64,000 bases of DNA from Pseudomonas argentinensis (GTDB taxonomy: Bacteria > Pseudomonadota > Gammaproteobacteria > Pseudomonadales > Pseudomonadaceae), in the NCBI RefSeq assembly GCF_001839655.2, contig NZ_CP056087.1, positions 3,410,001-3,474,000 of the forward strand. Direction: 5' to 3'. The translations under genes and the position numbers were made by a program. A model generated the notes under the pieces. The model made no database searches. It was not told the origin of the DNA and saw only the letters and a list, made by a program, of their open reading frames with translations. Below, in pieces: positions 1-55,900 of this stretch. Numbering within the stretch: the first letter of the stretch is position 1; each line of letters starts with the position of its first letter.

Positions 1-794
1 AGGCTGAAATGCCCGAGCAACCGCGCCATGGCCATGAACACCAGTACCTCGGCAACCACCCCCAGGGCCCAGAGCATGCCGATCAATCCGCGGCTGTAGC
101 CGAGCTGCTCCAGGTGAATGCTCAGGAAGGTGTAGTACGGCCCGTGGGACAGCTGCATCAGCGCCACGCACAGGTAGAAGGCCAGCACACCGGGCTGCCT
201 GAGCTGCTTCAGGAAACCGCCCTGGCTCGCCGACTGCGAGGACGCCAGTGGCCGGGCATCCGGCACCCAGAAGCTGCTCAGGGCAATGCCGGTGATGATC
301 AGCAGCAGCACCCAGGGATAGACGTCCAGGCCGAGCAGATCGAAGGCCTTGCCCAGGCCGACCACGCTGAGGATAAAGCCGATCGAGCCCCACAGGCGAA
401 TCTGCGCATAGCGCGCCGACTGCTCGCGCAGGTGCGCCAGGGTGATGACCTCGAACTGCGGCAGCACCGCATGCCAGAAGAAGGCATGCAAGGCCATCAC
501 CAGGGCCAGCCAGGCATAACTCTGGCTGACGAAGATCAGGCTCAGGCTGAGCAAGGTGCACAAGGCGCCCAACCGCACGATGAGCAAGCGTCTGCCGCTA
601 TAGTCGCCGAGCCAGCCCCACAGGTTCGGGGCGATGCAGCGCATCAGCATGGGAATGGCCACCAGCTCGCCGATGCGTGCCGGTGAAAAGCCCAGGTGCG
701 CGAAGTACAGGCCCAGAAACGGCGCGGTGGCGCCGAGCAGCGCGAAGTAGAACAGGTAGAAACCGGACAGGCGCCAGTACGGAACAGCCGCCAC
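1..794 (-). CDS. MFS transporter (HcaT/MFS_1-like), 3' end outside window
   Basis: Major facilitator permease of the inner membrane; the substrate cannot be told from sequence. The minus-strand frame is open from a GTG at 794 to the window edge, giving the first 264 or so residues. The product starts VAAVPYWRLSGFYLFYF, followed by alternating hydrophobic segments (about six to seven helices) and a cytoplasmic loop of MFS type (GDYSGRR near residue 65). An in-frame TAG lies two codons upstream of the GTG and no other start is available, so the start is well constrained, although no good Shine-Dalgarno is visible. The start codon sits inside GCT/CTGCAG-rich repeat DNA shared with other intergenic regions here. 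It lies just downstream of aroC on the same strand, the order also found in P. aeruginosa. The C-terminal half is not in the window. Confidence 0.8.
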   Translation of the reverse strand, partial: MAAVPYWRLSGFYLFYFALLGATAPFLGLYFAHLGFSPARIGELVAIPMLMRCIAPNLWGWLGDYSGRRLLIVRLGALCTLLSLSLIFVSQSYAWLALVMALHAFFWHAVLPQFEVITLAHLREQSARYAQIRLWGSIGFILSVVGLGKAFDLLGLDVYPWVLLLIITGIALSSFWVPDARPLASSQSASQGGFLKQLRQPGVLAFYLCVALMQLSHGPYYTFLSIHLEQLGYSRGLIGMLWALGVVAEVLVFMAMARLLGHFS

Positions 795-7800: not shown

Positions 7801-10376
7801 GCCGACCCGGTCCTGGTCTTGCGTCTTGGCCGACCATCCTTGCGCTTGCGCTCGCCACGGCGGATCGGCGGCTCGACTTCCACCAGCGGTGCGTCTGCCA
7901 CCTGCGGCCCGGGCCCGGCGGCGCGCTCCAGTTCGCCGAGCATGCGGGCGATGCGGTCGGCGAGCTTTTCCGAGCTGAGCCGTTCGCGAAAACGCTCCAC
8001 CATCAGCGGGAACGCCAGCGGCGTGGCGCGGCGCAAGGCATGCAGATTCAGCTGCGCGGCGCGCATGTCGGCCAGGGTATGACGCAGCTGCTGCACGTCC
8101 AGCTCCTGACTGAGCACTTCGTCATGGGCCTGGATGAGCAACAGGTTGTCCGGGTCGTACTGGCGGAACACATCGAAGAACAGCCCACTGGAAGCCTGCA
8201 CCTGGCGCAGGCTCTTGCCCGCGCCGGGGTAACCGCCGAACACCAGGCCGGCGATCCGGGCGATCTCGCGGAAGCGGCGCTGCGCCAGCTCCCCGGCATT
8301 GAGGCTGGCGAGCACATCATGCAGCAGGTCGTGATCACCGAACAGGTCAGCATCGAGCAGCTGCGGCCAATCCACCTCGCTGGCGCACAACAGTTCCAGG
8401 CCGTAATCGTTGACGGCAATGGAAAAGCTCAGCGGGCGCCGCTGTCCCAGGCGCCAGGCCAGCAGACTGGCCAGTCCCAGGTGCACGTTACGGCCCGCGA
8501 AGGGGTATAGAAACAGGTGCCAACCCTCACGCGAGTGCAGGGTCTCGGCCAGCAAGGTGCCGGGCGCAGGTAATGCCGACCAGTTGGCCTGCACCTCCAG
8601 CAGCGGCTGCAACAGACGCATCTCCGGCCCCTCGAAACGGCCCTGGGCGGCCTCGCCGAAACGCGCCACCAGCGCTTCGGCCAGGGTGTTGGAGAGCGGC
8701 ATGCGCCCGCCATTCCAGCGTGGCACGCTGGCCTTGCCGGCGGCGCTGCGCTTGACGTAGGCAGTCATGTTCTCCACCCGCACCAGTTCCAGTGGTCGGC
8801 CGCCGAACAGGAACACATCGCCGGGGCGCAGGCGGGCGATAAAGCCCTCCTCGACGCTGCCCAGCGAGCCACCACCGCCGCCTTTGCTCCACCATTTCAC
8901 GGTCAGGCTGGCATCGCTGACGATGGTGCCCACGCTCATCCGGTGACGGCGCGCCAGGCGCGGGCTGGGCACCCGCCACACGCCCTCTTCGTCCGGTTCC
9001 ACACGCTGGTAATCCGGGTAGGCGCTGAGGGACTCGCCGCCCTGGCGTACGAAGGCCAGGGCCCAGCGCCACTGCGCCTCATCGAGGTCGCGATAGGCCC
9101 AGGTGCTGCGTATCTCGCGCAGCAGTTCATCAGGCCGAAACCCACCACCGAGCGCCATGCTGACCAGGTGCTGGACCAATACATCCAGGGGCTGATGGGG
9201 GGATTGTCGCGCCTCGATACGCCCCGCTGCCACCGCATCCTGCAGGGCGGCGGCTTCGAGCAATTCCAGAGCGTGGGTCGGCACCAGGGTCGCCCGCGAG
9301 GTACGCCCCGGCGCATGCCCGGAGCGCCCGGCACGCTGCAGCAGGCGGGCGACGCCCTTGGCCGAGCCGATCTGCAGGACCCGTTCGACCGGCAGGAAGT
9401 CGACCCCCAGATCGAGGCTGGAGGTGCATACCACCGCCTTGAGCTTGCCCTGCTTGAGCCCGGTCTCGACCCAGTCGCGCACCTCCCGAGCCAGGGAGCC
9501 GTGATGCAGGGCGATCAGCCCGGCCCAGTCCGGGCGTGCCTCGAGCAAGGCCTGGTACCAGAGTTCCGATTGCGAACGGGTATTGGTGAACACCAGGCTG
9601 ACGCTGCTGCTGTCCAGTTGCTCGACCACCTGGGGTAGCAACCGCAAGCCCAGGTGACCCGCCCAGGGGAAACGTTCCACCGCCGGTGGCAACAGGGTGT
9701 CGATCAGCGGCTTGCCGCCCGGTTCGCCGCGCACCAGACGACCGCTGCCGTCGGGCAGCAACACCTCCAGGGCGTGAGGCTGATTGCCCAGGGTCGCCGA
9801 CAGGCCCCAGACGATCAGCCCTGGGTTCCACTGGCGCAGCCGCGCCAGGGCCAGCTGCAACTGCACACCGCGCTTGTTGCCGAGTAATTCGTGCCATTCG
9901 TCCACTACCAGCATGCCGACATGGGCGAACTGGGCTTTCGCGTCGGCGCCGGTCAACAGCAGGGTCAGACTTTCCGGGGTGGTCACCAGGGCCGTGGGCA
10001 GGCGCCGGGACTGGCGCTGGCGTTCGGCGCTGCCGGTGTCGCCGGTACGCATGCCCACCGTCCAGGGCAATTCTAGGCCGTCTACCGGCGCCTGCAGGGC
10101 GCGCTGGGTGTCGGCCGCCAGGGCGCGCATCGGGGTAATCCACAGCACCGTCAATGGTGCTGCCGGCGCGGCTCGCGTGCTGGCTGCGGCCTTTTCTGCC
10201 GGCGCTTTACCGGCGAAACGATTGAGGGCGGCGAGCCACACCGCGTAGGTCTTGCCGGCGCCGGTGGAGGCATGCAGCAAGCCACTCTGCCCATCGGCGA
10301 CCGCCTGCCAGACCGTTTTCTGGAAAGCGAAGGCCTTCCAGCCGTTACGCCGTAGCCAGGTGCTCGCCAGGTTCAC
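7797..10376 (-). CDS. ligase-associated DNA damage response DEXH-box helicase (Lhr-like)
   Basis: Superfamily 2 ATP-dependent helicase of 859 residues, a usual length for the Lhr-like group. Motif I is STGAGKT (about residue 36), motif II DEWH (about 160), motif III SATLGN (about 195), and motif VI region [12 protein letters not shown] long C-terminal region containing winged-helix and Lhr-specific domains follows. The start is a GTG at 10376 that overlaps the ligase stop as GTGA; upstream in-frame sequence belongs to the ligase gene in another frame and looks non-coding. Together with the ligase, MBL-fold exonuclease and PdeM it forms the ligase-associated repair module; the unwinding role is inferred from motifs. 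Confidence 0.92.
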
Positions 10377-50345: not shown

Positions 50346-53153
<2,808 letters not shown>

Positions 53154-53377: not shown

Positions 53378-54448
53378 TCAATGCAGCCGTTTGCGACACA
53401 TCAGCTGAGTGAGCTTGGCCGCGTCCGGGCGCTCGATCACCCCGCGCTCGGTGACCAGGAAATCCACCAGGTCGCCCGGGGTCACGTCGTAGCGCGGCGC
53501 CACCTCGTCCACGCCCGTGATGCGCTCATGGGGCGAATAGGCCAGCGGGCCGCGGCCCAGGTCGTGAAAACCCTCCTCGCCGCTCTCCTGCTGCAGGTCG
53601 ATGAGCGCGCTCGGCGCCACCACCATCAGCCGCACACCATGGTGCATGGCCGCCACGGCCAGCTGATAGGTGCCGATCACGCCCAACACATCGCCATTGG
53701 CGGCGATCCGCTCGGCGCCGACGATGGCCCAGGTGATACCCCGTTCCTTCATCACATGGGCGAGCGCCGCATCGGCGCTCAACGCGGCGGCGATGCCTTC
53801 GCGCTGCAGTTCCCAGGCAGCCCGATGCGCGCCCTCCAGAGACGGCCGGCTCTCGCCCAGGTAACAGCGCTCCAGCAGGCCTTCGAGCTGGGCCGCGCGC
53901 ACCACCCCAAGGGCCGTACCGATGCCGCCACCGGCCAGCGCGCCGGCACAGCCGATGCTCATGAGGTTCTGCAGGTTGCCCTGAAACCCGCGGATCAGCT
54001 CCACGCCAAGCTGGGCCATGGCCAGATTGGCCTCGCGGTCGCGCTGATGGGCGCCACGGGCTTCATCCTCCAGCACGGCCAGGGCCTGCGCACCGGGCTT
54101 CATGACCGCCAGACGCTGCTGCATGCGCGCCAGCAGGCGCTCGCCCTCTTGCGCTGGCAGACCGGCCGCGCACAGCGCATCGCGATCGACTTGCAGCCCG
54201 GCGCGCCAATCAGCGCCCTCGTCCACCCGCTGCCGGGCACCGAGCACCAGCGCGTAGCCGCTGCAGATCAGCCGGGCGGCAGCGCCCAGCAGCGCGCCTT
54301 CGGCCAGCACCGTGGCCACGGCAGACACCGAATGACAGGCCTGCCAGACCTGCTCGCCAGGCAGGCGGCGCTGATCGAGCACGTGCAGCACACCCTCGCG
54401 CCAGACCAACCCCACGACCTGCTCGGCAGCCAGCAAACGCTCGCGCAT
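53378..54448 (-). CDS. MtnA-family protein with degenerate active site
   Basis: Member of the methylthioribose-1-phosphate isomerase/eIF2B family, 356 residues, in the place mtnA takes next to the MTA deaminase gene and gyrA in P. aeruginosa. It aligns well to MtnA at both ends (MRERLLAAE; ERPDAAKLTQLMCRKRLH) and around TALGVVRAA and IGTYQLAVAAMHHGVRLMVVAPS. However, key positions differ from family members as I recall them: RGAP is LGAA, the RPTAVNLFWAL Arg is Gly, the catalytic Cys of HCNTG is Gly (IGCAG), catalytic Asp of GADRI is Glu, and NK of DVANKIGTY is GV. The frame is intact. ATG 54448 has GGAG; a GTG one codon earlier is possible. Probably catalytically dead or changed in function. 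Confidence 0.85.
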   Translation of the reverse strand: MRERLLAAEQVVGLVWREGVLHVLDQRRLPGEQVWQACHSVSAVATVLAEGALLGAAARLICSGYALVLGARQRVDEGADWRAGLQVDRDALCAAGLPAQEGERLLARMQQRLAVMKPGAQALAVLEDEARGAHQRDREANLAMAQLGVELIRGFQGNLQNLMSIGCAGALAGGGIGTALGVVRAAQLEGLLERCYLGESRPSLEGAHRAAWELQREGIAAALSADAALAHVMKERGITWAIVGAERIAANGDVLGVIGTYQLAVAAMHHGVRLMVVAPSALIDLQQESGEEGFHDLGRGPLAYSPHERITGVDEVAPRYDVTPGDLVDFLVTERGVIERPDAAKLTQLMCRKRLH

Positions 54449-54571
54449 CACCTACTCCATCCAAGAAAGCCGGCCAGTATACGCCTGGCAGGCACCGCGC
54501 CGCACGCCACGCACCTTCAAGACTGGCGCGTTCCTCTATAGACTCAGGGTTTTCGCTCAGGGAGCCCACCC

Positions 54572-55900
54572 ATGGCCGACGCCCCGCTCGACCTTCTATT
54601 GCTGCCCACCTGGCTGGTGCCGGTCGAGCCTGCCGGCGTCGTGCTGCACGACCATGGCCTGGGTATCCGCGACGGCCGCATCGCGCTGATCGCCCCGCGC
54701 GCCGAGGCCCTGCGCCGTGGCGCGACGGAGGTCCGCGAACTGCCCGGCCGCCTGCTGACCCCCGGCCTGGTCAACGCCCACGGGCATGCCGCCATGACCC
54801 TGTTCCGCGGCCTGGCCGATGACCTGCCACTGATGACCTGGCTGGAAAAGCATATCTGGCCGGCGGAAGCCAAATGGGTCGATGAGCAGTTCGTGCAGGA
54901 CGGCACCGAGCTGGCCATCGCCGAACAGATAAAGAGCGGCATCAGCTGCTTTGCCGACATGTACTTCTTTCCCGAGATGGCCTGTGAGCGGGTGCACGCC
55001 AGCGGCATGCGCGCACAGATCAGCATCCCCGTGCTGGACTTCGCCATCCCTGGCGCCCGGGATGCCGACGAGGCCCTGCGCAAGGGCGTGACCCTGCTCG
55101 ACGACATGAAGCATCACCCGCGCATCAGCGTGGCCTTCGGGCCCCATGCACCCTACACGGTCAGCGACGCGAATCTGGAAAAGCTGCGCATCCTCGCCGA
55201 GGAAGTGGACGCCGGCATCCACATGCACGTCCATGAAACCGCCTTCGAGGTGCAGCAGAGCCTGGAACACCACGGCGAGCGCCCCCTGGCGCGCCTCAAT
55301 CGCCTGGGCCTGCTGGGCCCGCGCTTCCAGGCCGTGCACATGACCCAGATCGATGACGAGGACATCGCCCTGCTGGTGGCCACCAACAGCAGCGTGATCC
55401 ACTGCCCGGAATCCAACCTCAAGCTGGCCAGCGGCTTCTGCCCGGTCGAGAAGCTCTGGCAGGCCGGCGTCAACGTGGCCATCGGCACCGACGGCGCGGC
55501 CAGCAACAACGACCTCGACCTGCTCGGCGAAACCCGCACCGCTGCCCTGCTGGCCAAGGCCGTGGCCGGCTCGGCCAGCGCCCTGGATGCACACCGCGCC
55601 TTGCGCATGGCGACCCTCAACGGCGCCCGCGCCCTGGGTCTGGAGGGCGAGATCGGCTCGCTGGAGCTCGGCAAGGCCGCCGACATCGTCGCCTTCGACC
55701 TGCGCGGTCTGGCCCAGCAACCGGTCTATGACCCGGTTTCACAACTGATCTACGCCACCTCCCGGCACTGCGTCGAGCACCTCTGGGTCGCCGGCAAACC
55801 GCTGCTCGAAGAAGGCCGGCTGACGCGCCTGGACGAAGAACGCATCGTTGCCACCACCCAGCGGTGGGGCGCGAAAATAGCCGGACGTCCGGCACATTGA
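54572..55900 (+). CDS. mtaD: 5-methylthioadenosine/S-adenosylhomocysteine deaminase
   Basis: Amidohydrolase-fold deaminase of 442 residues that converts MTA to methylthioinosine (and SAH). Metal ligands: NAHGHAAM (HxH), [11 protein letters not shown], and the late Asp of [22 protein letters not shown] at 54558. Divergent from the MtnA-like gene (123 bases apart). In P. aeruginosa the deaminase feeds a methylthioinosine phosphorylase and then MtnA; if the neighbour is inactive, the isomerase must come from elsewhere or the route stops. Confidence 0.94.

Follow-up and report, generated by a model that had tools for sequence, protein, structure and literature searches.

Why would a bacterium keep an intact gene for an enzyme whose active site has been lost? 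The question is raised by a window of 64,000 nucleotides, the whole stretch of DNA analyzed here, from the genome of Pseudomonas argentinensis (contig NZ_CP056087.1, positions 3,410,001 to 3,474,000). Positions 53378..54448 on its minus strand hold a homologue of mtnA, the gene for S-methyl-5-thioribose-1-phosphate isomerase, and the 356-residue product is a predicted pseudoenzyme. On balance, the answer we favor is that the MtnA of this species and its relatives (the straminea group, here called the clade) has lost its catalysis and has been preserved by selection for another, non-catalytic function, one already present in Pseudomonas MtnA when it was still an isomerase.

Seven active-site residues were compared with those of canonical Pseudomonas MtnA, in what we take to be the B. 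subtilis numbering (Arg51, Arg94, Cys160, Gln199, Asp240, Asn250 and Lys251), and all seven are altered. The phosphate-binding Arg51 is replaced by Leu (CTG, codon 54, 54287..54289), Arg94 by Gly (GGT, codon 96, 54161..54163), the catalytic Cys160 by Gly (GGC, codon 166, 53951..53953), Gln199 by Glu (GAG, codon 205, 53834..53836), the catalytic Asp240 by Glu (GAG, codon 246, 53711..53713), and the Asn250-Lys251 pair by Gly-Val (codons 256-257, 53678..53683), all read on the minus strand. The protein is accordingly an enzyme homologue without its catalytic pair, and the residues that bind the sugar phosphate (Arg51, Arg94, Asn250-Lys251) are gone as well. At the level of motifs, RGAP reads LGAA, RPTAVNLFWA reads GLPAQEGERL, THCNTG reads SIGCAG, VGADRI reads VGAERI and VANKIGTY reads VLGVIGTY. 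An earlier note on this DNA, made from the sequence alone, had listed these substitutions apart from that of Gln199, and each was recovered in the alignment and in the codons. Conservation of the catalytic residues at shifted positions, which the same note had named as fatal to its view, could be ruled out: the Cys of codon 167 occupies the Asn position of THCN, where clade members have Cys, Ser or Asn.

Is the product still an MtnA-type protein? By its profile matches it belongs to the MtnA/IF-2B family, with 140.3 bits to Pfam PF01008 (E 9.5e-41, cut-off 22.4) and 285.6 bits to NCBIfam PRK05720 over residues 4-356 (cut-off 271). It falls below the stricter equivalog TIGR00512 (228.6 bits, cut-off 279), and in this, as in its seven changed residues and its missing pathway partners, it differs from MtnA proper. 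The frame runs unbroken for 356 codons from the ATG (54446-54448) to the stop (53378-53380), with a GTG in frame immediately upstream, so that the absence of any stop or frameshift claimed in the earlier note is borne out, and structure modeling predicts an intact MtnA fold. The eIF2B alpha, beta and delta subunits are related, but the window's protein scores low against models of that type (PRK08335, 43.5 of 339 bits; PRK06372, 43.3 of 249 bits). To our knowledge, bacteria have no eIF2, and the protein arose inside Pseudomonas from bacterial MtnA. Protein and Pfam searches (E 0.001) for a second, canonical mtnA in the closed, single-contig genome of 5.08 Mb found no other member of the IF-2B family.

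The loss is not peculiar to one strain. A scan of genomes returned close relatives with 73-90 percent identity, among them P. straminea, P. argentinensis, P. flavescens, P. daroniae, P. punonensis, P. seleniipraecipitans and other strains (some database records name the clade species Phytopseudomonas). Together with a sample of the genus, it gave 12 distinct clade genomes, including the window's own, which form a single group on the gyrA tree. All 12 mtnA frames are intact, each of 356 residues, and all 12 have Gly at position 160 and Glu at 240; position 251 is Val in 11 and Leu in one (G164), its only difference at these three sites. Gln199 is retained in 10 of the 12, the window's genome having Glu. 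The 19 closest database proteins share the pattern of residue loss, one of them (P0008) retaining Arg51. The contention that almost every known active-site residue has been lost thus holds for the clade at large. Loss of the catalytic site is, by these alignments, a trait of the whole clade, and isomerase activity is presumably absent from its MtnA.

The protein has nonetheless been guarded against change. Across ten clade pairs the ratio of nonsynonymous to synonymous substitution rates (dN/dS) of mtnA, a comparison that the earlier note had proposed, is 0.071-0.115, which indicates strong selection against amino-acid change. For comparison, the median is 0.030 for mtnA of genomes with the full pathway (6 pairs), 0.042 for genomes without mtnC only (6 pairs) and 0.035 for mtnA lacking the Cys outside the clade (10 pairs), so that MtnAs without the Cys from other lineages are held as tightly as working ones and are not decaying. 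One might suppose that the clade gene is an unbroken relic decaying slowly under relaxed selection. Working MtnA is indeed constrained about three times more strongly (0.03, against about 0.09 in the clade), and the earlier note had held that a broken frame in a relative would point to plain pseudogenization. Such a frame occurs in P. yangonensis MY50 (L060, about 8001-9079), where it is broken after the ETRP motif; this gene, the only broken mtnA found, has Gly at the Cys position (HGNAG), and its break may be a sequencing error of the draft genome. No clade frame is broken, however, and the window's gene has neither the broken frame nor the dN/dS near 1 of a pseudogene. Among 166 distinct MtnA sequences, 164 measure 354-359 residues, and the two short ones are that of P. 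yangonensis and one interrupted by an assembly gap. (The latter, in G085, was rejected as a broken gene, its missing part consisting of X residues.) With dN/dS far below 1 throughout, and with mtnA surviving even where the pathway around it has gone, slow decay is largely refuted and seems improbable.

What has become of the pathway? In the four clade genomes searched (G000, which is the window's own, G001, G147 and G164), MTI phosphorylase (MTIP), the source of MtnA's substrate, mtnB and mtnC gave no match over the cut-off; the weak matches to the mtnB model reach 35-57 bits (cut-off 137). Because these three were not found, the known Pseudomonas route to and from methylthioribose-1-phosphate (MTR-1-phosphate) is missing. 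This answers part of the earlier note's question of how the organism recycles that compound, a nucleosidase/kinase route not having been searched for. It also bears on the idea that the protein remains an MTR-1-phosphate isomerase working through Glu246 and other residues. Glu stands in for Asp throughout the clade and Gln199 is mostly kept, but nothing is left of the Cys, the two Arg or the Asn-Lys pair, none of the three enzymes was found in the four genomes, and in the related ribose-1,5-bisphosphate isomerase complexes with sugar phosphates were obtained with the mutants C135S and D204N, according to the titles of the structure entries. Continued isomerase activity is thus the least credible of the explanations.

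The same dissociation of gene and pathway runs through the genus. A match to mtnA (E up to 1e-5) is present in all 199 genus genomes, while mtnC is present in 79 and missing from 120, and MTI phosphorylase is present in 108 (107 over the curated cut-off) and missing from 91. Every one of the 79 genomes with mtnC has the phosphorylase, and all 91 that lack both have kept mtnA. (mtnB was searched in 13 genomes; in complete genomes mtnB, mtnD and mtnC lie side by side.) MtnA was read from 138 genomes, 22 of the 79 with mtnC and 116 of the 120 without it (G043, G061, G078 and G137 were left out). All seven residues are retained in the 22. In the 116, Cys160 is kept in 41 and replaced in 75, by Gly in 72 and Ser in 3. 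When the genomes are divided by the phosphorylase instead, Cys160 is kept in 48 and lost in one of those that have it, and lost in 74 and kept in 15 of those that do not. At the DNA level, the pattern HCN[T/A]GA occurs in all 79 genomes with mtnC and is absent from 69 of the 120 without it (a genome-wide count, whose matches were not all confirmed inside mtnA). With exceptions, these counts fit an order in which loss of mtnC was followed by that of the phosphorylase, and this in turn by that of the catalytic Cys.

How often did the Cys disappear? Parsimony requires 16 changes of state on the gyrA tree (157 rows) and 12 on a tree of 129 rows; on an MtnA tree from which 17 pocket columns were removed it requires 13, at least 9 of them forced by well-supported branches, although the gyrA and MtnA trees are FastTree trees with many weak branches. 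Horizontal transfer of a single Cys-less mtnA is unsupported as the source of the repeated losses, since the pocket-free tree still needs its 13 changes. The number of independent losses rests on parsimony, because paired comparative tests were not significant. One further protein, that of Pseudomonas sp. 5P_3.1_Bac2 (L059, 8001-9068), is strongly diverged (46 percent identity) and has Cys160 replaced by Gly and Asp240 by Gln; its long branch joins the clade in the MtnA tree, a placement that the program flagged as doubtful, and it looks like an independent extreme case.

A plausible course of events has three steps. Loss of mtnB and mtnC would have come first, leaving an MtnD protein that then lost its metal ligands. 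Loss of MTI phosphorylase would have followed, so that MtnA's substrate was no longer made; Cys160 would then usually have become Gly, and Asn250 Ser, Ala or Gly, with the remaining sequence as constrained as before. In the straminea group, the most extreme case, the sugar-phosphate site (Arg51, Arg94, Asp240, Asn250 and Lys251) would have been lost too, leaving a folded protein. On this scheme MtnA would have a second function, most likely that of binding a partner protein, as the related eIF2B subunits do.

Alternatively, the pocket may have been rebuilt for another substrate or reaction, making the clade protein a new enzyme. This is the main rival, if a rather unlikely one. The changes in the pocket are recurrent: Gly is the replacement for Cys160 in 72 of 75 cases, Asn250 has become Ser, Gly or Ala in 67 of the 71 Cys-less MtnAs from outside the clade, and the position following Asp240 is occupied by Cys in 59 of those 71, as against 1 of 63 that keep Cys160. 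Moreover, the clade has fixed pocket residues of its own, and the constraint is as strong as that on an enzyme. On the other hand, the clade has kept neither of the residues regarded as catalytic in this family, and no second polar pair has been fixed in their stead; the Cys beside the lost site varies, as described above; and few stretches vary more within the clade than the N-terminal loops that formerly bore Arg51 and Arg94. A non-catalytic function is favored over a new activity because catalytic and binding residues vanish together in the clade, because the metal site of MtnD has been lost in parallel, and because relatives (the eIF2B subunits, and MRI1 and acireductone dioxygenase in eukaryotes) show non-catalytic roles for this pair of folds.

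MtnD, the acireductone dioxygenase (ARD) of the same pathway, provides the parallel. In the window's genome, a degraded mtnD lies just outside the window (G000:C1:3409057-3409602, minus strand), 46 bp after an MFS-transporter-like open reading frame and at the place where mtnB, mtnD and mtnC adjoin in complete genomes. Its metal ligands are presumably H96, H98, E102 and H140; placed on Klebsiella 1zrr, these positions are Val, Ala, Gln and His, so that one of the four remains. An ARD match is present in 196 of the 199 genus genomes, and 72 of these proteins were read (6 from genomes with mtnC, 66 from genomes without), a choice that favored less diverged sequences. The four ligands are intact in all 6 of the former; 65 of the 66 latter lack one ligand or more, and in the remaining protein (G054) a single residue within the motif is deleted. 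On 68 rows, 39 different ligand patterns occur, and at the individual sites no fewer than 15, 22, 23 and 12 changes are required. For mtnD, five clade pairs give dN/dS values of 0.105-0.158, ten further pairs without mtnC 0.074-0.220, and three pairs with it 0.016-0.033. The ARD-model score separates genomes with mtnC from most of those without; six of the latter score like the former, some of them perhaps on account of draft assemblies. Judged by these residues, MtnD has followed the path of MtnA, and more completely, a pattern that fits lost catalysis better than new catalysis. MtnD, too, probably has a second, non-catalytic role; that the two proteins act together is a guess.

Perhaps it is the DNA rather than the protein that is kept, for example as a promoter for gyrA, which lies 224 bp downstream on the same strand (50346..53153, minus strand) and within 1.5 kb in 162 of 168 mtnA loci. 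Against this, selection acts on amino acids; four genomes (G012, G023, G080 and G136), of which two are Cys-less, retain an intact mtnA although no gyrA follows it within 1.5 kb (the remaining two of the six exceptional loci stop at a contig end or gap); and MtnD, elsewhere in the genome, has gone the same way. Retention of the DNA for its own sake is accordingly very unlikely.

The earlier note's pseudoenzyme interpretation is supported by the folded, constrained and unduplicated protein described above. Several points nevertheless weigh against a non-catalytic MtnA. Low dN/dS is evidence that the protein matters but does not show it to be non-catalytic, and the weaker constraint in the clade and the broken frame of P. 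yangonensis also count here. Cys160 is retained in the 15 genomes without the phosphorylase mentioned above, and is missing from G133 despite the presence of that enzyme. A paired tree test of MTIP against Cys160 went in the expected direction without reaching significance (4.2 of 10 pairs one way, 0 the other, median p 0.125). Finally, MtnD is missing from three of the 199 genomes. A bolder proposal, which we hold only tentatively, is that throughout Pseudomonas MtnA and MtnD share or link a non-catalytic role, for example in an eIF2B-like regulatory or scaffold complex, and that this role carries enough weight for mtnA to have outlived its pathway in all 91 sampled genomes without mtnC and MTIP; selection may even favor turning the chemistry off. 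If so, hundreds of annotated MTR-1-phosphate isomerases or acireductone dioxygenases would be neither.

Pseudoenzymes and moonlighting relatives of MtnA are already known. MRI1 has a second role in eukaryotes (PMC6302742), and the dioxygenase ADI1 has non-enzymatic moonlighting roles there (PMC10707003), a likeness within the same pathway. The differences are plain: human MRI1/MRDI (4ldq), a mediator of RhoA-dependent invasion, keeps HCN and GADR in the alignment whereas the window's protein has neither, and, in contrast to ADI1, MtnD of Pseudomonas without mtnC loses the metal site itself while the reading frame is kept. In P. aeruginosa, the lowering of MtnA under a drug-like compound was interpreted through the pathway (PMC9748083). 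The available passages of PMC6302742, PMC10707003, PMC8576121, PMC9748083 and PMC3909081 contain no description of Cys-less MtnA or metal-ligand-less MtnD in Pseudomonas, and the open-access literature searched yielded no report of a second, non-catalytic role or an ordered loss of catalysis in Pseudomonas MtnA. As far as that literature shows, the novelty lies in two enzymes of a single bacterial pathway that have lost catalysis repeatedly, and apparently in a set order, while the proteins themselves were fully retained. Two such enzymes seem to have turned pseudoenzyme repeatedly in a well-studied genus, MtnA under selection as strong as that on its working form. A hidden second function is thereby indicated for MtnA, and perhaps for MtnD; since evolution has already taken the catalysis away, that function is open to a clean test. 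The case is also a bacterial counterpart to the relation of eIF2B subunits to MtnA-type enzymes. Databases name the clade proteins methylthioribose-1-phosphate isomerase or acireductone dioxygenase despite the absent catalytic or metal residues; such annotations would be wrong for many Pseudomonas genomes, which bears on metabolic models of sulfur recycling.

Both neighbors named in the earlier note are in place: gyrA lies downstream on the same strand and a methylthioadenosine (MTA) deaminase gene lies divergently upstream (54572..55900, plus strand; 729.8 bits to NCBIfam PRK09045, cut-off 540). The amidohydrolase motifs of the deaminase are intact by eye, and its dN/dS is 0.018-0.042. In 14 of the 168 loci (L017-L021, L023, L104, L105, L107, L109, L110, L111, L117 and L129) the deaminase does not adjoin mtnA; all 14 belong to a single Cys-less group, in which Tyr precedes the lost Cys (TYGNAG). 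In L202 (G080, 84-1387) the deaminase match consists of two overlapping pieces in different frames, possibly a frameshift or an assembly error. In G133 (L016), which has MTI phosphorylase, the motif of the lost Cys reads FTHGSTG, and there is no acireductone dioxygenase match. The MFS-transporter-like reading frame, recognized by eye, enters the window with its end only (1..662, minus strand), the remainder lying to the left. Spanning mtnA on the opposite strand is an open frame of 386 codons (53381-54541, plus strand), most likely a by-product of codon bias in a GC-rich gene.
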